This document shows positions 20,371-35,944 of a stretch of 41,182 bases of DNA, in pieces. The DNA comes from Opitutales bacterium (GTDB taxonomy: Bacteria > Verrucomicrobiota > Verrucomicrobiia > Opitutales > Seribacteraceae), in the NCBI GenBank assembly GCA_029252505.1, contig JAQXBH010000080.1, positions 1 through 41,182 on the forward strand, read 5' to 3'. The translations under genes were made by a program, and so were the position numbers. Under the pieces are notes generated by a model, which did not search any database, had not been told where the DNA came from, and saw nothing but the letters and a program-made list of their open reading frames with translations. The first letter of the stretch is position 1, and every line of letters begins with the position of its first letter.

Positions 20371-23300
20371 ATGGCTTCTCAACATTCCCCCATACAAGTA
20401 TTTGGTGCGACAGAAAATAATCTTAAAGGGATTAATCTAGAATTACAGCCAGGGCAACTTATTGTGTTTACTGGATTAAGTGGTGCAGGGAAATCAACAC
20501 TTTTATTTGATGTTTTACATGCTGAAGGGCAAAGAAAGTATGTAGAAACCTTTAGCCCTTATGTGCGTCAATTTCTAGAAACTCTCCAGAGACCGGAAGT
20601 AGAATCAATTAAGAATATCAGGCCGTCCATTGCAGTTGAGCAAAAAAATACCATCAGAAATTCACGGTCTACGATTGGTACGATGACAGAACTTTGCGAT
20701 TATTTTAAAGTGTGGTTTTCTCAGGTTGCCCGATTTATTGATCCAGATTCTGGAAATGTTCTTCAGCACGAAACTCCTCAATCACAAGCCGTTAAGCTAA
20801 CAAATAAAAAAGACTCCCAATTCATTATTGGTTTTATTGCGGTAAGACCGGAAAACCTTTCTTCGAAAGATTTCCTTACTTTCTTAATACAGGCGGGACA
20901 TGCTCGTGGTTTACATGGAAATAAATTTCTGCACTTAGAAGATATCATGAATTCCGACTGGAATGAGATTGAAATATTTGTGGCGGTTGATCGTGTTGAT
21001 ACTCAAAAGGACAGTAAATCTAGGCTCATAGAGGCTATTTCACTTTCGATTAAGCATGGTCATGGCTTGGGGCAAGTAAGGGATTATTCAGGCAAATTGC
21101 TCAACCTGTTATACGAAGGACTTCGATCTCCTGAAAGTGGACGAAAATTCCCGGCTGCACATCCCTCAGCCTTTTCTTTTAATTCACCAATTGGAGCATG
21201 TGCCAAATGTAAAGGGTTTGGCAGAATTATAGAAATTGACCCTACACTTGTTGTTTCAGATCCATCATTATCAATTATTGGGGGAGCGGTAAAAGCATTT
21301 TCAGGAAAGGTATATGGACACTGCCAGGACGAACTATTACAAGCCTGCAAAGATAAAAAGATTCCCACAAATATCGCTTGGAGTAGTCTCACCAAAAAGC
21401 AAATAAATTACATTTGGCAGGGCGATCCAACCTATTCAGAAGGCAGCCAGAAGTGGTATGGAATTGATGCATTTTTTAAATGGATTGAAAAGAAAACATA
21501 TAAAATGCATGTTCGGGTCTTTCTTTCGAAGTACAGGGGATATTTTAATTGTCCAAGCTGTGACGGAAATAGACTAAAAGAAGATTCGCTCCATTGGAAA
21601 TGGAATAACTTTACATTACCAGATCTCTATCGCTTACCCATTGACGAACTTTTTAAAAAGATTTCAACCTACAAACTAACTGGTGATCCAAAGTCCGATC
21701 TCGCGATTGAAAGTATCCAAGCCAGACTCTCATACCTTAAAGATGTGGGCCTTGGTTATCTAAGCTTGGATCGTACCGCCAAAAGCTTAAGTGGCGGAGA
21801 AACTCAACGGGTTAACTTAACTGCCTGTTTGGGTGCTTCTTTAACCGATACGCTTTTTGCCTTAGATGAACCTACCATTGGACTCCACGGAAAAGATATT
21901 CACAAACTGATTTCAATTCTAAAAGCACTAGCAGATGCCGGGAATTGCGTTTGTGTGGTGGAACATGATGAGCAAATAATTAACGCGGCTGACAAAGTTT
22001 TTGAAATTGGACCACTTCCGGGAACAAATGGGGGAGAAATTTCTTTTGAAGGGACAGTTGCACAACTACACCAATCCAAAAATTCTATTACTGGACACTG
22101 GCTTAACCAAGATTATCTTCCTTCCTTCTTGAAAAGTCCTAAACGGAAAGTTCGTTCGAAAGATCCTTTTTTGCACATTAAGAATGCATCCTGTAATAAC
22201 ATTCAAAAATTAAGTACTCAATTACCCCTTTCTAAACTGGTTTGCATTGCCGGTGTTTCAGGGTCCGGAAAATCTACACTCCTCCACGATATTATCTACG
22301 CCGGTATGATAAATTCGAATAAAAATACAAGTGTAAAAAGCGACATAGATTTTGATGGGGTTGTTGTAATTGACCAAAGTTCGGTAGTGCGATCACCCAG
22401 ATCAAACCCAGTTTTATATTCCGATGCTTGGAGCCCAATCAAAGAAGCTTTTGGAAGAACAGAATCAGCAAAAAGACTTGGGTTTTCCGCAAGCGATTTC
22501 TCATTTAACGCAGGAAATGGAAGATGTGAAGTATGCACTGGCCTAGGGTATGAAATCGTAGAAATGCAATTTTTATCTGACGTTCAAATCCCATGTAGTC
22601 ATTGCTACGGCAAGCGGTTTAAGGAAGAAATCCTAACGGTTCAACTAGATGGATTAAATGTATTAGAAACATTAAATTTAACAATAGATGAAGCTGTTTT
22701 ACGCTTTGAACACTTTCCAAAAACCAAACGAAAATTAAGCTCATTAAAAAATGTTGGGTTAGGCTACTTAACCTTGGGCCAACCATTGAATACTCTCTCA
22801 GGAGGAGAATCCCAGCGTTTAAAGTTAGTTAAATATATGACAACATTAAAGAAGGGAGTTCTCCCTTCTTTACTCATCATTGACGAACCCACCACCGGGC
22901 TGCACATGGAGGATGTAAAACAACTCATGAAAAGCCTTCAGGAGATCGTGGAAAGCGGACATAGCCTTCTCATTGTTGAACATCATTCCCACGTTCTAGC
23001 ACAGGCTGACTGGATTCTTGAAATGGGGCCAGGTTCCGGAAAACAAGGAGGGCGAATGATTGCCTCTTCAACTCCTGCTAAGTTATCAAAACTAAATACA
23101 CCTACTGGCTCTCTCTTAAAAAAGAAAACGCAAGTAATACTGAGCTCAATTCAAGGTAAGGAGATTCAAAATAAGAATTTTAGTAATTTTCTAGAAATTG
23201 AGGGTGCACGAGAAAATAATCTTCAAAACATCTCCCTGAAAATTCCCACTAACCAATTTGTTGTAATTACTGGCCCTTCCGGATCAGGAAAATCTTCGCT

Positions 23301-25791
23301 AGCGTTCGATGTTATTTTTGCTGAAGGTCAAAGAAGGTTTATGGAGTCAATGTCATCTTATGCACGACAATTCGTGGAACAACTTGGTAAACCTGCAGTT
23401 GATCGAATATCTGGAATTTCCCCCACGGTTGCAATTGAGCAAAGAGTTACCAGAGGAACAAAGAAATCTACAGTTGGTTCAATTACTGAAGTGGCACAAT
23501 TTCTTAGATTATTATACGCCCGTGTTGGAACACAATTAAGCGTTCAGAACGGCAATCCTTTGTCCATTGCAAGTGAAACTGAAATCACTGATCAAATTGA
23601 AAAAATTGTACGGCTTAAAAAACCATCAAAGAAAGCCCCTCTTTTTCTCTTAGCTCCCTTAGTCACAAGTAGAAAGGGACATCATAAACCAATAGTTAAT
23701 TGGGCGAGAGACAAAGGATATGATTTTGTAAGATGTGACGGCCAGTTTTTAAATACAAACGGATTTGAAGGATTAGACAGATACCGCCTTCATGATATTG
23801 AAGTTCTTTTGGAAGAATGGCATAATGTTCCTGATCGAAATACGATTCGACAAAGCGTTCGTCATTCCCTTCAAATGGGAAATGGCAGAAGCCTTGTTGC
23901 CTCAAGAAATGGTGATACTAGCATTTGGTACTCAACCTCAAGAGTTGATTCCTCAAATGGTGAATCTTACCCCGAATTAGAACCAAGTCTATTATCATGG
24001 AATTCCGCTAGAGGATGGTGCCCATTTTGCAAAGGGTATGGTAAAATTTATCAATGGATGAAAGATGATTTACCAGCAACCGGAAATTGGTGGAAAATGG
24101 AGGACGGAGAAAAATGCTCCGAATGCAACGGAGAACGGCTCAATGCAGTCAGTCGAAGTGTAGTTTTATATGGAGCTGAAAAAAAGAAAATATCTTTTCC
24201 GCATTTACTGGAACTCACTCCTAATGAAATTATCGTGTTTCTAAATAATGTGCAATTACCACAAAGGCTTCAGTCTGTTGCCAGTGCCATTATACCTGAA
24301 ATAATTGAAAGACTTAAATTCATGACTCAAGTGGGACTAGATTACCTTTCACTCAACCGAGAGACATCCTCATTATCGGGAGGGGAGGCACAAAGGATTA
24401 GATTAGCCGCTCAACTTGGATCAAACCTTTCAGGTGTTTTATATGTTTTGGACGAACCATCCATTGGGTTGCACCCAAAAGACAATCAAAAACTCCTAGG
24501 TTCATTACGAGACTTGCAATCCCGTGGAAACTCGTTGCTAGTGGTCGAACACGATCCGGAAACAATTCAACAAGCAGATTACCTAATTGATATTGGACCG
24601 GAAGCAGGACGAGAGGGTGGTAAAATTGTGGGAGAAGGAAAACCAGCTGAAGTATCGAAAATAAAGGGATCCTCGACAGCCCAATATATGCGAGAGGGTA
24701 TCAAACATCCAATGCGTGGTTCCTGGAGAAAACTAGCATCGAAATCAAATTATTTAAAAAATAAGAATTGGTTAAAAATTGAAAAAGTTAATTTTCGTAA
24801 CCTTAAAAATTTTTCCATCGATATTCCTACTGGTAGATTATCAGTCTGTTGCGGAGTTTCTGGATCAGGTAAATCTAGCTTTGTGAGAGGTTTTCTATTT
24901 CAAGCAATAAAACAATCTATTGTAGAAAAATCGGACGATCTAAACTTAGTTAATGGTAGAGTCAAAAACGGCAATATCTTTAATAAAGCAATTGAAGTTA
25001 CGCAAAGCCCCATCGGCAAAACTTCGCGATCCACTCCCGCAACCTATTTGGGTGTATGGGATAAAATTCGCACAATGATATCATTACTACCAGAAGCAAA
25101 AGCAAAAGGATGCCCTCCTGGACATTTTTCATTTAATGTAAAAGGTGGGAGATGTGAGATTTGCAAAGGAGCAGGTAGAATAAAAGTGGAAATGAGCTTT
25201 TTACCCAATTCATTTGTAAAATGTTCAGAGTGTAATGGAAAACGGTACAAAGAAGAATTACTTGGATTATATTGGAAGGGGAAAAATATATCAGACATCC
25301 TAGAATTTACATTTGAAGAAGCAGCTGATTTTTTTAAATTCGACAACTACCTTCATCAAACATTTTCACTTATGATTGAGACTGGACTCGGTTATATTAA
25401 ACTTGGCCAAATTTCTCCATCTTTGTCAGGGGGAGAAGCACAAAGGTTAAAATTAGCGGCGGAACTAGCTCATGGAATAGACAAACAAAGACATAAAAAT
25501 CTGCACAAAACTAAACCCACACTTTATATACTAGAAGAACCCACAATTGGGTTACATACATTAGACTGTAAAAAACTGATATCATTACTCCACCGTCTGG
25601 TTAATGAAGGAAATACCGTAATTGTAATTGAGCACGATACCGATGTTATAGCAGAGGCAGACTTTCTTTTCGAACTAGGTCCAACTGGTGGACAGAATGG
25701 TGGGAAATTACTTTACAAAGGAAAAACAGCTGGAATCCTCAGATGCCCGGCAAGCAAAACTGCTCCCTTTCTCAAAAAGATTTTAAATTAA
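20371..25791 (+). CDS. uvrA: excinuclease ABC subunit A, tandem double-length form
   Basis: UvrA recognises bulky DNA damage and loads UvrB in nucleotide excision repair. This protein has 1806 residues, about twice the usual 940. It contains two complete UvrA units (about 1-925 and 945-1806) in one continuous frame. Four Walker A motifs are visible: G-L-S-G-A-G-K-S at 35-42, G-V-S-G-S-G-K-S at 628-635, G-P-S-G-S-G-K-S at 968-975 and G-V-S-G-S-G-K-S at 1495-1502. Each module has an L-S-G-G-E signature (first at 473). CxxC zinc pairs occur at 277/280 with 394/397 and at 1217/1220 with 1249/1252, plus one in each second module. The halves clearly differ in sequence, so this is an old fusion, not a recent duplication. 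Double UvrA is known from Chlamydiae. Its stop overlaps that of tyrS. Confidence 0.96.
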   Translation: MASQHSPIQVFGATENNLKGINLELQPGQLIVFTGLSGAGKSTLLFDVLHAEGQRKYVETFSPYVRQFLETLQRPEVESIKNIRPSIAVEQKNTIRNSRSTIGTMTELCDYFKVWFSQVARFIDPDSGNVLQHETPQSQAVKLTNKKDSQFIIGFIAVRPENLSSKDFLTFLIQAGHARGLHGNKFLHLEDIMNSDWNEIEIFVAVDRVDTQKDSKSRLIEAISLSIKHGHGLGQVRDYSGKLLNLLYEGLRSPESGRKFPAAHPSAFSFNSPIGACAKCKGFGRIIEIDPTLVVSDPSLSIIGGAVKAFSGKVYGHCQDELLQACKDKKIPTNIAWSSLTKKQINYIWQGDPTYSEGSQKWYGIDAFFKWIEKKTYKMHVRVFLSKYRGYFNCPSCDGNRLKEDSLHWKWNNFTLPDLYRLPIDELFKKISTYKLTGDPKSDLAIESIQARLSYLKDVGLGYLSLDRTAKSLSGGETQRVNLTACLGASLTDTLFALDEPTIGLHGKDIHKLISILKALADAGNCVCVVEHDEQIINAADKVFEIGPLPGTNGGEISFEGTVAQLHQSKNSITGHWLNQDYLPSFLKSPKRKVRSKDPFLHIKNASCNNIQKLSTQLPLSKLVCIAGVSGSGKSTLLHDIIYAGMINSNKNTSVKSDIDFDGVVVIDQSSVVRSPRSNPVLYSDAWSPIKEAFGRTESAKRLGFSASDFSFNAGNGRCEVCTGLGYEIVEMQFLSDVQIPCSHCYGKRFKEEILTVQLDGLNVLETLNLTIDEAVLRFEHFPKTKRKLSSLKNVGLGYLTLGQPLNTLSGGESQRLKLVKYMTTLKKGVLPSLLIIDEPTTGLHMEDVKQLMKSLQEIVESGHSLLIVEHHSHVLAQADWILEMGPGSGKQGGRMIASSTPAKLSKLNTPTGSLLKKKTQVILSSIQGKEIQNKNFSNFLEIEGARENNLQNISLKIPTNQFVVITGPSGSGKSSLAFDVIFAEGQRRFMESMSSYARQFVEQLGKPAVDRISGISPTVAIEQRVTRGTKKSTVGSITEVAQFLRLLYARVGTQLSVQNGNPLSIASETEITDQIEKIVRLKKPSKKAPLFLLAPLVTSRKGHHKPIVNWARDKGYDFVRCDGQFLNTNGFEGLDRYRLHDIEVLLEEWHNVPDRNTIRQSVRHSLQMGNGRSLVASRNGDTSIWYSTSRVDSSNGESYPELEPSLLSWNSARGWCPFCKGYGKIYQWMKDDLPATGNWWKMEDGEKCSECNGERLNAVSRSVVLYGAEKKKISFPHLLELTPNEIIVFLNNVQLPQRLQSVASAIIPEIIERLKFMTQVGLDYLSLNRETSSLSGGEAQRIRLAAQLGSNLSGVLYVLDEPSIGLHPKDNQKLLGSLRDLQSRGNSLLVVEHDPETIQQADYLIDIGPEAGREGGKIVGEGKPAEVSKIKGSSTAQYMREGIKHPMRGSWRKLASKSNYLKNKNWLKIEKVNFRNLKNFSIDIPTGRLSVCCGVSGSGKSSFVRGFLFQAIKQSIVEKSDDLNLVNGRVKNGNIFNKAIEVTQSPIGKTSRSTPATYLGVWDKIRTMISLLPEAKAKGCPPGHFSFNVKGGRCEICKGAGRIKVEMSFLPNSFVKCSECNGKRYKEELLGLYWKGKNISDILEFTFEEAADFFKFDNYLHQTFSLMIETGLGYIKLGQISPSLSGGEAQRLKLAAELAHGIDKQRHKNLHKTKPTLYILEEPTIGLHTLDCKKLISLLHRLVNEGNTVIVIEHDTDVIAEADFLFELGPTGGQNGGKLLYKGKTAGILRCPASKTAPFLKKILN

Positions 25792-30317: not shown

Positions 30318-32078
30318 ATGAAACAAAGCAAAAACAAAAAAGTAATTAAACGCGTTTCGGGATATATTTTTGAACATAAATTTCTTTTTGTCCTTACCCT
30401 TTCACTCGCGTTTATAATGACCGTCCTCTCTGTATTAGTACCGTCCGTTATTCAAAGAGTACTAGATGAAATTTTCGTACAAGGGTTTGAAGAATCTCAA
30501 GTCCTATTTAATGGAATTCTTCTTATAGGGCTACTTTTTCTTTCGAAAGAAGTACTAAATTGCCTACGAATTAGGATTAATAATAAATTAGAACAAAAAG
30601 TTATTTTACGAATTAGAAAAGCTCTTCACGATAAGTTATTGGACTTACCGATTAACTTTTATGACCGGAGGAAAAGTGGAGATATTTCCTCCAGGGTAGT
30701 TGAAGATGTGCAAAATGTTGAACGAGCTATTTTAGATGGAACGGAGCAAGGAGTAATCGCAATTCTTACACTAATTGGAGTTACCATTATGATGTTTTTA
30801 CAAGAACCAAGACTCGCAGCTTTGGTTTTCCTCCCACTTCCCGTGCTTTTGGTCATGGCTTTTCGTTATTCAAAGATTTCCAAGAAAAACTGGCGGGCTG
30901 TTCGCGAAGCATCAGGAGACCTGAATTCATTATTAGTAGAGGATATTCAGGGTAATCGATTAATTCATTCATTCGATTTAAAAAATCGTGAAAAAAAGCG
31001 GTTTCTTGCAAGTAGTAAAGAATTAGAAGCCCGCTCACTTCAGGCAATGTATAGATGGTCGATACAGGGTCCCAGTGCCAGTTTTACTTCTTCTCTCGGA
31101 ATCCTAGCCGTTGTGGGGATGGGAGCTTACCTTCTCCAAACTGATCCCAATTTTACAAATGGGCAATTCTTTGCTTTTCTACTTTATACCAACATGTTTT
31201 ATGAACCTGTTAGACAATTGGTATCAATTAATAATATGATTGCAGCTGGAAAAGCTTCGGGAGAAAGAGTTTTTGAGATTCTTGATGAGGAGGTTTTAAT
31301 CACAAGCCCGAAACAACCCACTCACTTTCCCATGGAAGACCATTCCATAAGATTCAAAGATGTCAAATTCGCTTATGACGAAAGGCAATCGATTGTTAAA
31401 GGTCTTAATTTTTCATTACCATCCGGTTCAACCACTGCCTTGGTAGGACCAACTGGTGCTGGAAAAAGTACAATCGCGAACCTTCTGCTTCGATACTATG
31501 ATGTGGAAAAAGGAATAGTTTCAATAGGAGGGGTTGACTTAAGAAAATTTTGTCTGAGCTCGTTAAGGACTAATATTGGTCTAGTCTCGCAAGACCCTTT
31601 TTTATTTGATACGACTGTTCGAGAAAACTTATTGCTTGCATCACCTACCTCTAATGAAGAGAAGATAATCTCCTCTCTAAAAGTAGCCAATGCTTGGAAT
31701 TTCGTGGAGAAATTACCGAACGGACTCAATACCTTAATCGGCGAGCGAGGAATTAGACTAAGCATGGGGGAAAAACAAAGACTTACCTTGGCGCGCGCAA
31801 TTCTTAAGTCTCCACCGATCGTTATTCTAGATGAAGCAACATCAAGTGTAGATGTTGAAACTGAAAGACAAATTCAACTTTCTTTGGAAAAGCTCATAAA
31901 AAACAGAACTACATTAATCATTGCACATCGGCTAAGTACAATAAGAAACGCAGATCAAATAATATTTCTCAATCATGGGGAAATTGTTGAACAAGGAAAC
32001 CACTTTGAACTTTTAGAAAAAGGTGGCTTCTACGCCAATTTTTGTAGACACCAAGAAAGTTTTCTTCCGCAAATATGA
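30318..32078 (+). CDS. ABC transporter, fused permease and ATPase (MsbA-like exporter)
   Basis: The 586-residue half-transporter has an N-terminal six-helix exporter domain (about 15-315). Its ATPase domain (about 340-586) carries Walker A G-P-T-G-A-G-K-S near 377-384, Q-D-P for the Q-loop and signature L-S-M-G-E near 483-487. Walker B I-V-I-L-D-E near 502-507 and the H-loop I-A-H-R-L follow. The signature is L-S-M-G-E instead of L-S-G-G-Q, a variant seen in some exporters and still compatible with activity. It would work as a dimer. Lipid A core flipping (MsbA) or drug/lipid export are both possible; the neighbours do not decide. Confidence 0.93.
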   Translation: MKQSKNKKVIKRVSGYIFEHKFLFVLTLSLAFIMTVLSVLVPSVIQRVLDEIFVQGFEESQVLFNGILLIGLLFLSKEVLNCLRIRINNKLEQKVILRIRKALHDKLLDLPINFYDRRKSGDISSRVVEDVQNVERAILDGTEQGVIAILTLIGVTIMMFLQEPRLAALVFLPLPVLLVMAFRYSKISKKNWRAVREASGDLNSLLVEDIQGNRLIHSFDLKNREKKRFLASSKELEARSLQAMYRWSIQGPSASFTSSLGILAVVGMGAYLLQTDPNFTNGQFFAFLLYTNMFYEPVRQLVSINNMIAAGKASGERVFEILDEEVLITSPKQPTHFPMEDHSIRFKDVKFAYDERQSIVKGLNFSLPSGSTTALVGPTGAGKSTIANLLLRYYDVEKGIVSIGGVDLRKFCLSSLRTNIGLVSQDPFLFDTTVRENLLLASPTSNEEKIISSLKVANAWNFVEKLPNGLNTLIGERGIRLSMGEKQRLTLARAILKSPPIVILDEATSSVDVETERQIQLSLEKLIKNRTTLIIAHRLSTIRNADQIIFLNHGEIVEQGNHFELLEKGGFYANFCRHQESFLPQI

Positions 32079-32084
32079 TTAAAT

Positions 32085-32363
32085 CTAAGTCCTCCGTGCG
32101 AAGCTAAGAAGTACTCTTATCGTAATAGAAAACAAAAAGGGAAAGCACAGAAAAAATAAACTCAAGAGAGCGCGGATATTAAGATTCGCAAGCGGCCCAT
32201 AAACCTTCTCTTCTGCCCATGTCCTTAAAGGGAGTTCAACAAAATAATCCACATGAAGTGTTTGCCCTAGATAATAAACCATTAATGGCCAAATGGTGAA
32301 ACCTATGCATCCGAAAAACAAAACCCACCACAACTCTTTACTCCAATCAAAATTTTTATTCAT
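32085..32363 (-). CDS. small two-helix membrane protein, unknown function
   Basis: This is a 92-residue protein starting M-N-K-N-F-D-W-S-K-E-L-W-W. It has a hydrophobic helix at about 13-32, an acidic/polar central loop containing R-T-W-A-E-E-K-V-Y-G-P, and a second helix at about 63-86. I do not recognise a family. The start was set at the ATG at 32363; upstream open sequence would overlap the divergent gene's leader. It converges with the ABC transporter, ending 6 bp from it, and is divergent from the PSCyt1-LRR gene. No signal peptide or catalytic motif is evident. Confidence 0.6.
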   Translation of the reverse strand: MNKNFDWSKELWWVLFFGCIGFTIWPLMVYYLGQTLHVDYFVELPLRTWAEEKVYGPLANLNIRALLSLFFLCFPFLFSITIRVLLSFARRT

Positions 32364-32440
32364 ATATAATCGTTCACTTGCATATGACAGTAAAACTACT
32401 AATTTATAATAATTATTATTTGTCATTTCCCAATCGAATT

Positions 32441-33865
32441 ATGAGACACACATTTTTTTCCTTAGTTCTTGCCTTAGGTATTGCTCCCATTTTTTTGCAA
32501 GCTGAAGTCGAACAGTCCTCAAAAAATATCTACGATAGCCTAATACAACCTATTTTTGTTGCCAAATGCCAAGAATGTCATGGCGAACAAAAAAGTAAAG
32601 GAAAGCTAAGACTTCATACCAAGAAAGACTTTCTAATTGGTGGAAGCGGGGCAGGAGAGGACATCGTTGTAAAAGGAAGTGCTATTGATAGTGAATTGAT
32701 TTTTCGAATTACTCTCCCCAAAGACGATGATGAAGCGATGCCTCCTCTTGAAGATGCTAGTCACTACAACCCCGTAACGGCACAGGAACTTGATATCTTG
32801 AAGGCATGGATTTCACTTGGTGCTTCATTCGACCTTTTGGTTTCGGACCTGGATGAGAAAAACAAAAAATCTGCCAATTATGTGCTAGAAAATATGCCCA
32901 AAAAGCTATTATCCAAGACTATCGCACTACAGCCAAAGTTACCGGTTGTTCCACCGGTAAGCCCGAGCATCTTAGAAAGTCTTAGTAAAGAAGGTATTTT
33001 AGTCATGCCAATAGCTCAAAATACAAACGCGTTGTATGTCAATGCATCGTATGCCGGTAAGGATTTTGATAATAATAAAATTGTTTTGCTTGAACCGATC
33101 GCTAAGCAACTACTCTGGTTAAACCTTGCTCGAACAGCTATTACCGACGAAGGAATTGCTTCTCTTGAAAATTTTCCATTACTAACCCGTTTGCATCTCG
33201 AGAATACTTCGATATCAGACGACGCAACTGTTCATTTATCCAAGCTATCTAATTTGGAATACTTAAATCTATATTCTACTAATATTTCTGATATATCAGT
33301 CCCCCATCTACAGAAATTGGTGAAACTGAAGAAAATTTTTCTTTGGCAAACCAAGATGACCCAACAGGGTGCAGAGACACTAAAGAAACATTTTGTGGAT
33401 TCGAAAGAGTATGAATCCTTATTAGCACAGAAGGATGACCTTAAAAAATCTTTTGATAAACTGGTAAACTCTGAAGATTTAAAAATACGAAAATTAGAAG
33501 AGCAAATCATAAAAGCAGGTAAACTGACTGTAGATATTAAACCTATCAATGAAAAATGCCCTGTAACAAAAAAACCCGTGAACGAATCTAAGATTTCGAT
33601 TTTCGAAGGCAGAAAAGTTGGATTTTGCTGTGATAAGTGTAAAAATAAATTCGAGTTAGATGGAGCAGTCTTCAGGTCTAAAATTAAAGGTTTTGAAGCA
33701 TCGAGTGATTTTCGCTCTTTAGTTGAAAACATTCAAAAAGTACGAGCAACAAAAGATGCTGCAATAGAAGCATCCCAGCAAAGAATGAGGCTAGTCACAG
33801 GAAAGCTCTTCAAAATGGGTCCACAAATCAACCTAGGATGGAACAATCCTGTATCTTCAAAGTAA
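32441..33865 (+). CDS. PSCyt1-type cytochrome c, leucine-rich repeat and C-terminal Cys-motif protein
   Basis: The 474-residue secreted protein starts with a signal peptide (about 5-21). A PSCyt1 domain (about 28-130) follows with haem-c motif C-Q-E-C-H at 43-47 and M-P-P near 100, a plausible axial Met. A linker leads to leucine-rich repeats (about 215-320) with three or four 24-residue units of the type L-x-x-L-x-L-x-x-T-x-I-S-D. A coiled region comes next. A C-terminal Cys motif (C373, C396, C397, C400) in C-P-V-T-K-K-P-V and G-F-C-C-D-K-C-K resembles YHS/TRASH-type metal-binding segments. The ATG at 32441 is chosen because it begins the signal peptide; an upstream in-frame ATG at 32378 adds 21 unlikely residues. 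Confidence 0.87.
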   Translation: MRHTFFSLVLALGIAPIFLQAEVEQSSKNIYDSLIQPIFVAKCQECHGEQKSKGKLRLHTKKDFLIGGSGAGEDIVVKGSAIDSELIFRITLPKDDDEAMPPLEDASHYNPVTAQELDILKAWISLGASFDLLVSDLDEKNKKSANYVLENMPKKLLSKTIALQPKLPVVPPVSPSILESLSKEGILVMPIAQNTNALYVNASYAGKDFDNNKIVLLEPIAKQLLWLNLARTAITDEGIASLENFPLLTRLHLENTSISDDATVHLSKLSNLEYLNLYSTNISDISVPHLQKLVKLKKIFLWQTKMTQQGAETLKKHFVDSKEYESLLAQKDDLKKSFDKLVNSEDLKIRKLEEQIIKAGKLTVDIKPINEKCPVTKKPVNESKISIFEGRKVGFCCDKCKNKFELDGAVFRSKIKGFEASSDFRSLVENIQKVRATKDAAIEASQQRMRLVTGKLFKMGPQINLGWNNPVSSK

Positions 33866-33944
33866 ATCTTACATGTTTGAGGATAATCTTGGAAAATATG
33901 GTAGATTCTATTGCCAAATATAAGTAGTTTAGAAATTTGAAATT

Positions 33945-34517
33945 ATGACAGGAAGCACTGACGAAGAGGTTATCTCTATTTTTAAGGAAACAAAGGCATT
34001 ACTGACCGGCCATTTTATTTTACGTTCGGGGTTGCGAAGCGGCCATTTCTTTCAATGTGCGCAAGTTTGCCAACACTTAGATAAAGTAACGATTCTTGCT
34101 AGGTTACTGATTAAAAAACTGGACTGCCCAACTCCAAACACAATAGTTGCCCCCGCAATGGGAGGTCTCGTCCTCGGGCAAGAAGTGGCAAGGCAATTAA
34201 ATTGTAGATTTTTATTCTTAGAAAAAGTAGACGATAAACTTGCCCTTCGCAGAAATTTCTCCCTAAGTTCGAGTGACAATGTATTGCTTGTTGAAGATGT
34301 TGTTACAAAAGGTGGAAGAGTGGACGAGGCTCTTACCATACTTCATCGTACTAATTGCAATATTTGTGCAGTAACATCATTAGTCGACCGAAGTACAGAT
34401 GAACTCGATTTTGGCGTACCTTTCCAGCCACTTCTTAAACTAGATTTCCCTACATATGATCCGTCTAATCTTCCCAATGATTTAAAGTCATTGAATCCTA
34501 CTAAACCTGGAAGCTAG
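33945..34517 (+). CDS. pyrE: orotate phosphoribosyltransferase
   Basis: PyrE makes orotidine 5'-phosphate from orotate and PRPP in pyrimidine synthesis. The 190-residue protein shows F-I-L-R-S-G-L-R-S near 24-32, V-A-P-A-M-G-G near 68-74 and a K-x-D-D-K-L-A-L-R-R segment. The PRPP-binding loop V-L-L-V-E-D-V-V-T-K-G-G is at 113-124. Length is typical. It converges with degP, 11 bp apart. Prs, which makes the PRPP it uses, lies two genes away on the other strand; co-regulation is not suggested by the layout. Confidence 0.93.
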   Translation: MTGSTDEEVISIFKETKALLTGHFILRSGLRSGHFFQCAQVCQHLDKVTILARLLIKKLDCPTPNTIVAPAMGGLVLGQEVARQLNCRFLFLEKVDDKLALRRNFSLSSSDNVLLVEDVVTKGGRVDEALTILHRTNCNICAVTSLVDRSTDELDFGVPFQPLLKLDFPTYDPSNLPNDLKSLNPTKPGS

Positions 34518-34528
34518 CCTCAAATCAA

Positions 34529-35944
34529 TCAGGGCAGTCTGTAAGCCAAGAAACGGTATTTATTACGGTACCAAACATAAAAACGATTAATCCCACTCTT
34601 AATCTGTTCACCAACTTCTTGAATAGAATTTATTTGGTGTCCATTAATTTCAACAATTACAACGCCCTGTTTAAAAGTTTCTGCATCTCCTGTCGATTTT
34701 GTAACAACCACTCCCTTTGTCGTCGGAGGTATTTGAAACCGTAGTCTATTCTCAACATTCAACTCCTCTAAAGAAACACCTGGCATTGATATTCTATTTT
34801 TACTGCCCATTAAATCGAGTGTCACAAATAATTTCTTTTTACTTCCGTCTCTAATAATATCAACAGTAATCTTTGTGCCTGGTGCTGTTTGAGAGATAGC
34901 CAATCTGGATTGATTGATTGAATCGACTACTTGCGAATCTACCTTTATGATTCGATCGTTTGGTACAAAGCCAGCGATATCTGCCGCACTTCCCGGTACA
35001 ATCTTTGTCACGATTACACCTGAACCATCATTTGAGGGTGCTAATTCAACACCAAGAAACCCCCTTCTAACTCCTCCCCTCTCAACCAAGTCGGTTAGTA
35101 CTTTTTGAACCATATTAACAGGAATCGCTAATCCGATTCCCATACTAGCACCAGTTTGAGAAATTATTGCGGTATTAATACCGATTAAACGTCCCATTGC
35201 ATCTAACAATGGACCTCCCGAATTCCCTCTATTGATTGCCGCATCTGTTTGAATAAAATTCTCGTATGAACCCTCTAGGTCAAGAACACCTAATTCAGAT
35301 CTCTTCGTCGCTGAAATTATACCCATGGTTACCGTCATGCCGATTCCTAAAGGATTTCCTGCCGCAAAAACAACATCACCGACCTCTAAATGATCACTAT
35401 TTCCTAATGTTACATGTGGAAATGGTTTATCATTCTCTATTTTCAGAACGGCAACATCTGTTGATCGGTCGAAACCTATAATTTTGGCCTGGAATTGCCT
35501 TTTATCCGATAATTGTACTGTTACCTCTTCAACGAGTTCACCAGTTCTCGGGTCAGTTATAACATGGGCATTCGTGATAGTATGGCCTTCTGGGCTAACA
35601 ATTACGCCAGAACCTATACCGGCAGGGACCATTTCTTCTTCCACTCTAGCATTATTTAAAAGAGGTAAGCCAAAAAATCTCCTCAGTAGTTCTTCGCGCG
35701 GGTTAGTTCCACCGCCTGGGTAGAGTCTCCTGACCACCTGCTGGGTAGTAACTGCAACCACAGCGGGAGTCGCCTTTTTTAGAGCAAGAGAATAACTACT
35801 AGGAGCTCTATTTAATGAGCGGTCAATAACAGCATCTTCTATTTGTAAGGAAAGTTTGCGATTCTGAGCAAAGAGGTTCCCATTACCAATCGCAAGTACT
35901 GTAGATAATATGAGGCCTAAAATAATTGGTTTCATGACTATCAT
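34529..35944 (-). CDS. degP: DegP/HtrA-type periplasmic serine protease with two PDZ domains
   Basis: This is a protease/chaperone of envelope quality control. The 471-residue protein has a signal peptide (about 4-26) and a trypsin-like domain with the full catalytic triad: His127 in T-N-A-H-V, Asp163 in S-T-D-V-A and Ser242 in G-N-S-G-G-P. The first PDZ domain is at about 280-370. A shorter, more divergent second PDZ occupies about 385-471. Length fits the DegP/DegQ group. It follows prs (41 bp) at the end of the bamA-skp-lpxD-prs series, a sensible place for an outer-membrane-protein quality-control factor. The start may be the first ATG or the one at residue 4. Confidence 0.93.
   Translation of the reverse strand: MIVMKPIILGLILSTVLAIGNGNLFAQNRKLSLQIEDAVIDRSLNRAPSSYSLALKKATPAVVAVTTQQVVRRLYPGGGTNPREELLRRFFGLPLLNNARVEEEMVPAGIGSGVIVSPEGHTITNAHVITDPRTGELVEEVTVQLSDKRQFQAKIIGFDRSTDVAVLKIENDKPFPHVTLGNSDHLEVGDVVFAAGNPLGIGMTVTMGIISATKRSELGVLDLEGSYENFIQTDAAINRGNSGGPLLDAMGRLIGINTAIISQTGASMGIGLAIPVNMVQKVLTDLVERGGVRRGFLGVELAPSNDGSGVIVTKIVPGSAADIAGFVPNDRIIKVDSQVVDSINQSRLAISQTAPGTKITVDIIRDGSKKKLFVTLDLMGSKNRISMPGVSLEELNVENRLRFQIPPTTKGVVVTKSTGDAETFKQGVVIVEINGHQINSIQEVGEQIKSGINRFYVWYRNKYRFLAYRLP

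Follow-up and report, generated by a model that had tools for sequence, protein, structure and literature searches.

A gene from an Opitutales bacterium encodes a protein of 474 residues in which a haem-c domain of the PSCyt1 type, leucine-rich repeats (LRR) and a YHS-type cysteine segment are combined, the last of these being carried on two long helices that appear to interrupt the final repeat. We interpret the product as an exported, soluble c-type protein of the PSCyt1-LRR kind with a single haem and with a soft-metal-binding YHS domain on a two-helix arm, and give this reading as a whole about an even chance. The sequences compared show a haem-c motif with a Met as candidate distal ligand, the repeats and the YHS-type cysteines; they also show how these are conserved and where the arm lies. 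Proteins of the PSCyt1-LRR kind are already known; the YHS-type arm in the last repeat is the added part and is conserved in the family. Having a second candidate metal site that is conserved, this PSCyt1 member offers a concrete handle on whether the haem works with a metal. It also displays an apparent domain insertion inside a repeat, of which likely intermediates (two copies, one decayed copy) survive in relatives.

Gene and protein architecture

The window, i.e. the whole stretch of 41,182 nucleotides that was analysed, is contig 15 of a draft genome (G000) of 3.1 Mb and 87% completeness. The gene and the parts of its product are located as follows:

32441-33865, + strand: PSCyt1-LRR-YHS gene, product of 474 aa, probably exported (open reading frame and orthologues)
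32441-32503, + strand: signal-peptide-like N-terminus, residues ~1-21, ending ...FLQA/E (read by eye; hydrophobic starts in aligned homologues)
32567-32749, + strand: PSCyt1 haem-c domain, residues 43-103 (Pfam match, motif invariance)
32567-32581, + strand: CQECH haem motif (C43-Q-E-C46-H47) inside the PSCyt1 domain
32738-32746, + strand: Met100-Pro-Pro, probable distal ligand
32999-33382, + strand: leucine-rich repeats with a 24-residue period, residues about 187-314 (Pfam, model, Foldseek)
33401-33523, + strand: first long arm helix, residues 321-361 (AlphaFold2 models, block means 91-95)
33545-33685, + strand: YHS-type domain with C373, C396, C397 and C400, residues 369-415 (Pfam match below cut-off, conservation)
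33704-33814, + strand: second long arm helix, residues 422-458 (AlphaFold2 models)
33821-33841, + strand: PQINLGW, closing strand of the interrupted last repeat, residues 461-467 (conservation, model, relatives)

The translation begins at an ATG, and the upstream open frame also permits a TTG start at 32378. Apart from the two haem cysteines and C373, C396, C397 and C400, no cysteine occurs in the sequence. A preliminary description, made from the sequence alone, had proposed an exported protein that joins three modules; PSCyt1, LRR and a YHS-type segment are indeed all found in this single ORF, and its N-terminus, read by eye, contains a likely export signal. Pfam profiles bear out two of these modules above their cut-offs, PSCyt1 (PF07635) with 43.4 bits (cut-off 22, E 5.2e-11) and LRR_4 (PF12799) with 32.6 bits (cut-off 27, E 8.7e-8), but not the third: YHS (PF04945) matches residues 374-407 with 20 bits, under the curated cut-off of 30.3 bits. 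The domain is therefore termed YHS-type and not a Pfam-confirmed YHS member. A chance motif is ruled out by the PSCyt1 and LRR scores together with conservation down to 45% identity inside the family and 38% outside it. A match to Internalin InlA was rejected as a weak LRR resemblance (28 vs 1600 bits). Two aspects go beyond the preliminary description: the PSCyt1-LRR architecture recurs in the phylum, and the YHS part forms an arm within the last repeat.

Haem-c domain

Homologues were sought in 57 genomes, 37 of which (G000 to G036) belong to the same family (f1). The resulting 28-row alignment consists of 26 of the 27 f1 orthologues, that of G002 being omitted as it is cut by a contig end, and two homologues from G053. 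C43, C46, H47 and M100-P-P are present in every one of the 28 rows, and all 26 homologues scanned match PSCyt1 at E <= 0.01. The source genome contains two matches above cut-off to cytochrome-c assembly genes. The protein very probably carries haem c, which is presumably attached outside the cytoplasm and ligated by His and Met. AlphaFold2 models the haem domain poorly (pLDDT < 50 at residues 43-111), so that the geometry between haem and arm is not fixed by the model, and a search by sequence for solved structures related to the haem part gave none that convinces (best E 1.4).

Leucine-rich repeats and helical arm

Repeated solenoid strands are seen in the AlphaFold2 model, and LRR structures top its Foldseek list. 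With 6 rows, AlphaFold2 reaches block-mean pLDDT values of 84-96 for residues 211-460; the full model contains the two long helices (321-361 and 422-458), strands at 381-388 and 391-395, and a short strand at 462-464. When residues 305-474 are modelled alone, the arm is unchanged, the end strand is lost and residues 462-474 fall below 50, which fits a pairing of this strand with the repeats.

The last repeat starts at residues 302-318 (WQTKMTQQGAETLKKHF) and is followed by the first long helix, the YHS domain, the second long helix and, finally, the matching end GPQINLGW (460-467). L128, a PSCyt1-LRR protein lacking YHS, finishes with WQTGVTKAGATALEGQLPGLKVNVGL as its last repeat. PQINLGW is similar to the PGLKVNVGL/IYINIGW of relatives with an uninterrupted last repeat, and its N464, G466 and W467 are kept in every row of the 28-row alignment with a letter at that position and are nearly invariant in a 26-row alignment. 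Sequence comparison places the YHS domain and its two long helices within the last repeat, after the helix of that repeat and ahead of its final strand (INLGW). The LRR face may dock a partner. A fold search with the C-terminal fragment returned nothing at E <= 0.001 (best E 0.31), and most of the matches listed are long helices or helical hairpins. The best solved structure found by sequence for the C-terminal part, RING interacting pore 1 (E 0.0094), aligns mostly along a helix and was rejected as unconvincing.

YHS-type domain

The C-terminal cysteine segment very probably has a YHS fold. Its cysteines lie exactly at the positions given in the preliminary description and are conserved in homologues, which leaves that reading standing: C373 is present in 28, C396 in 27, C397 in 26 and C400 in 27 of the 28 rows. 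The departing rows are L051 (C397) and the paralogue L054 (C396, C397 and C400); all four cysteines are invariant in a 26-row alignment (A3) that omits L051, L052 and L054. At E <= 0.01 the YHS profile finds 20 of 26 homologues. Scores of 18 to 28 bits, all under the cut-off, were obtained for the four single-copy homologues scanned, and among the homologues scanned only L046 and L050 exceed it, in both cases with two YHS stretches summed. Cysteine conservation and spacing, together with the sub-threshold YHS match, uphold the earlier assignment of the motif to the YHS/TRASH type.

In the predicted secondary structure the cysteines lie around a beta hairpin and the beginning of a helix. A comparable case is the YHS domain of a Mycobacterium phlei adenylyl cyclase described in PMC4626032, whose three cysteines C181, C204 and C208 have the same spacing (23, 4) as C373, C396 and C400, and which renders the cyclase responsive to Cu2+. 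The M. phlei domain differs in that it is fused to a cyclase described as cytosolic, and in that its first ligand is Asp178 where Asn370 is found here. According to the same source, the first ligand in other YHS/TRASH domains is Cys or Asp (PMC4626032); the position is occupied by Tyr in L028 and L049, and C397 may be the source of a fourth thiolate. Among solved structures no convincing match to the YHS profile was found (best E 0.066, a vasopressin-receptor construct). The fold search, with a query that included the arm and a list filled by its helices, contained the toluene/o-xylene monooxygenase hydroxylase chain 3rnc_A at E 3.2, a chain we take to contain a YHS domain. The source genome has two YHS matches: the present gene and an open frame of 114 residues (L090), by eye a small lipoprotein.

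Distribution and loss

Orthologues (E <= 2e-116) occur in 27 of the 37 f1 genomes, i.e. in 22/27 of the same genus, 0/4 of g2, 2/2 of g3 and 3/4 of g4. Four further g2 genomes (G167, G184, G201 and G222) have no orthologue, which brings the family to 27/41; as the genomes are incomplete, absence is unproven wherever no syntenic site was seen. A whole-protein search of the order found 51 of 273 genomes at E <= 1e-30, 30 of them in f1, a count that includes paralogue-only matches such as those of G026 and G030. A profile search of the phylum found 19 of 288 genomes at E <= 1e-40, and among the matches listed all but the present gene stop at residue 317 to 358. Ten of these phylum loci were translated, and the last 420 residues printed of the nine readable proteins contain no YHS segment. 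With the C-terminal 111 residues as query, 8/288 phylum genomes were found at E <= 1e-5, G000 included; the other seven contain either YHS-DUF2231 proteins or small YHS proteins that have a signal-like start.

G016 (L081, 6035-6758) and, as identified by eye in a three-frame translation, G026 (L082, 5526-6578) retain the gene as frame-broken remnants at the syntenic site, which lies between the genes for the phosphoribosyltransferase and the small membrane protein. In all four g2 genomes examined this site spans just 158-190 bp and the gene is absent. The survey of loss sites left out G006, G007, G020 and G036, owing to a contig end or the lack of a close ABC-exporter match. With the gene broken in two genomes and missing from four, it is dispensable in some lineages.

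Relatives in the phylum

PSCyt1-LRR proteins lacking YHS, some of them with the membrane domain DUF2231 at the N-terminus (e.g. L128, L121), occur in Verrucomicrobiota. They share PSCyt1 followed by the same repeats, and are alignable to the 474-residue protein from about residue 27 to 317-358, whereas their last repeat, where readable, either has no interruption or runs out into a plain helical tail (L138). L117 and L120 have DUF2231 joined to PSCyt1-LRR with a match above the cut-off of that domain; in L121 the match falls just under it (24.3 vs 26.4 bits). In L117 (6631-12004, G147) the directly following gene matches ResB and Cytochrom_C_asm, as expected of a cytochrome-c synthetase. The last repeat of L120 (6678-8471, G042) passes into a helical-looking tail with CKACH near the C-terminus, cytochrome c'-like by eye, i.e. 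a haem motif where the f1 proteins have YHS.

Planctomycete-specific cytochrome (PSCyt) proteins described in PMC5615132 are likewise multi-domain proteins with a PSCyt1 haem domain and without an assigned function. The partners given there are PSD, CBM, Big_2, WD40 and F5/F8, and the words 'leucine' and 'YHS' do not occur in the main text of that paper. A literature search restricted to open-licence papers found none on a PSCyt1-LRR-YHS protein.

Two homologues from family f18, L053 (G053, 38% identical) and L098 (G085), share the signal-like start, PSCyt1, LRR and YHS segment, but their YHS follows an intact last repeat and does not interrupt it. The phylum's YHS-linker-DUF2231 proteins (L113, 4816-5643; L114, 6215-7021; L115, 6693-7448) possess the same kind of YHS (CPV...FCCxxC) after a signal-like start, and DUF2231 is also a partner of PSCyt1-LRR. 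They were read from four such loci, the fourth being L116. Unlike the protein studied here, L113 and L114 have no haem domain or LRR and adjoin RND metal-efflux genes. The neighbours of L113 match ACR_tran, HlyD_D23 with HMBD, and OEP in Pfam, i.e. a Cus-type efflux system, and ORF reading places Cus-type efflux genes near the L114 and L115 genes as well. The linker is His-rich in L113 and L114. The YHS-linker-DUF2231 proteins are a possible unnamed partner of copper/silver efflux.

Proposed origin of the inserted YHS copy

In the f18 homologues L053 and L098 the last repeat is intact (IYINIGW and IYINTGW) and YHS follows it. Within f1, L046 (G032) and L050 (G034) have two YHS stretches each, one inserted and one C-terminal, and in L047 (G029, g4) a C-terminal copy split over three frames lies directly downstream of the stop codon. 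This split copy is likely a decayed second YHS, an error in the draft assembly being the alternative. The C-terminal copies of L046 and L050 are 54-60% identical to the f18 copies and 48-58% to the inserted copies of g4. A tree of YHS copies, built without L051 (cut at a contig end) and L054 (whose YHS is degenerate), has 25 inserted copies together on one side (70/65) and likewise five C-terminal copies (85/36), with weak support because only 52 columns were available. On the simplest reading, an ancestral C-terminal YHS was copied into the last repeat and the C-terminal copy was subsequently lost; the tree agrees, weakly. The DUF2231-PSCyt1-LRR protein of G147 (f24; domains by Pfam) ends, by eye, in a CPVSGRP...FCCRDC segment, in which no Pfam YHS match was found at E <= 0.001.

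Possible metal binding and function

The YHS cysteines probably bind a metal, and copper is the best single guess, if one slightly short of even. Both estimates weigh the ligand spacing and the Cus-type context of related domains against the CopA, RND and COX2 results and the Asn370 at the first-ligand position. The redox or metal-handling role put forward in the preliminary description is plausible, so that its interpretation is upheld in part. None of the neighbours identified beside the PSCyt1-LRR-YHS gene is a copper gene, and a CopA-type ATPase was not matched in any of the 37 f1 genomes, many of them incomplete, so that a genome correlation with CopA cannot discriminate. Heavy-metal RND pumps score above the cut-off in G029, G032 and G034 (g4) and near it in G028 and G031 (g3) and G036 (g4); in the 27 genomes of the genus none comes close, the best (E 6.7e-73) remaining far from the cut-off. 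COX2 (CuA) is matched in 34 of the 37 f1 genomes, including G016, G026 and the four g2 genomes; as these six have the gene broken or absent, it is not needed to keep the COX2 oxidase. The missing CopA matches, the lack of copper neighbours, the repeated gene loss and the lack of a near-cut-off RND pump in the genus weaken the case for copper.

As observations in their own right, the family combines 34 genomes with a COX2 (CuA) match with CopA-type matches in 0/37, and L147 (1231-2667, G008) encodes an oxidase subunit II to which a haem-c motif is fused and in which an additional stretch precedes the CuA motif. In 30 of the 37 f1 genomes the COX2 profile match is split, which suggests an arrangement like that of L147 there.

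If the preferred reading is correct, the thiolates of C373, C396 and C400, with C397 in addition, would be the ligands of Cu(I) or a different soft ion, which the arm could bring close to a haem, either that of its own molecule or that of a partner. The YHS arm of such a periplasmic metal-handling or metal-sensing cytochrome would take up copper, the haem would set or read its redox state, and the LRR would aim the molecule at its partner. Direct coupling between haem and metal we regard as unlikely. More improbable again is the full form of this idea, a two-centre protein in which the haem and a copper-thiolate on a swinging arm exchange electrons, and so oxidise, reduce or report Cu(I)/Cu(II) in the periplasm of seemingly CopA-less cells, the arm being a C-terminal YHS copied into the last repeat beside a docking surface.

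The strongest alternative, although we consider it rather unlikely, is a structural YHS domain: its four cysteines would coordinate a structural zinc or be paired in disulphides, the arm would be no more than a protein-binding or dimerising element, and the protein would carry electrons or act as an adaptor, as other PSCyt1-LRR proteins do. The copper-gene and CopA results just described would fit it, as would the YHS domain of toluene-4-hydroxylase, whose crystal is described as containing no bound metal (PMC4626032). The two-helix arm resembles generic hairpins, among them the Rad50 Zn hook at Z 9.7, a value in the range common for helices. Against a structural role, the cysteines are spaced like the ligands in metal-responsive YHS/TRASH domains, conservation extends to C397 though it stands outside the usual three, and related exported YHS domains adjoin Cus-type efflux genes. 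A thiol redox switch, in which the YHS cysteines cycle between oxidised and reduced states by exchanging electrons with the haem and periplasmic oxidation is sensed in place of a metal, would make use of a haem motif and four thiols in one protein, and vicinal C396-C397 are kept in 26 of the 28 rows; it is nevertheless very improbable, for all profile matches in the C-terminal part are of the metal type (YHS, CpXC, TRASH) and none is thioredoxin-like.

Gene neighbourhood and divergent tract

An ABC-exporter gene flanks the PSCyt1-LRR-YHS gene in every family locus where that side was covered. Many loci of the genus comprise, in this order, genes of the tyrosyl-tRNA synthetase type, redoxin, STAS, SpoIIE, DUF5069, the ABC exporter and a 113-aa membrane protein and, beyond these, the PSCyt1-LRR-YHS gene, a phosphoribosyltransferase (absent from some genus loci), an HtrA type, what we take to be a PRPP synthetase, LpxD, OmpH/Skp and Omp85. 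Downstream neighbours were not recognised in G019, G028, G029 and G031. This position amid envelope and housekeeping genes (HtrA-, LpxD-, OmpH- and Omp85-type), and the lack of any carbohydrate-binding Pfam match in the 474-aa protein, make it most improbable of all that the gene belongs to a PSCyt repertoire for the breakdown of polysaccharides or sulphate esters with an incidental YHS, despite the 31 PSCyt1 matches in the source genome and the frequent location of PSCyt genes near sulphatase genes described for freshwater Verrucomicrobia (PMC5615132).

Two further features adjoin or include the gene:

32085-32426, opposite strand to the PSCyt1-LRR-YHS gene: adjoining 113-aa ORF, like a small membrane protein
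31350-34600, no strand: tract of DNA divergence between G000 and G008 (L062) (identity, dS)

The small ORF is kept in synteny even where the PSCyt1-LRR-YHS gene is lost; it was not detected in two g3 loci and has no Pfam family above cut-off. Compared with its nearest relative G008, the source genome has 89-91% DNA identity in the flanks and 52-78% between about 31,350 and 34,600 (3.2 kb). The dS between the two is 0.4-0.9 outside the tract, 2.5 in the small membrane-protein gene, and saturated in the PSCyt1-LRR-YHS gene and the phosphoribosyltransferase. The tract was likely exchanged by homologous replacement, a mosaic in either draft assembly being the alternative; since G000 and G008 are about equally far from G017 and G012 here, either may be the recipient. 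A mismatch is also seen between G019 and G024, in which the PSCyt1-LRR-YHS gene is 77% and the adjacent ABC exporter 72% alike. Elsewhere in the window, positions 20371-25791 contain a UvrA-like ORF of 1806 aa with two UvrA interaction-domain stretches, which looks like a double-length UvrA.
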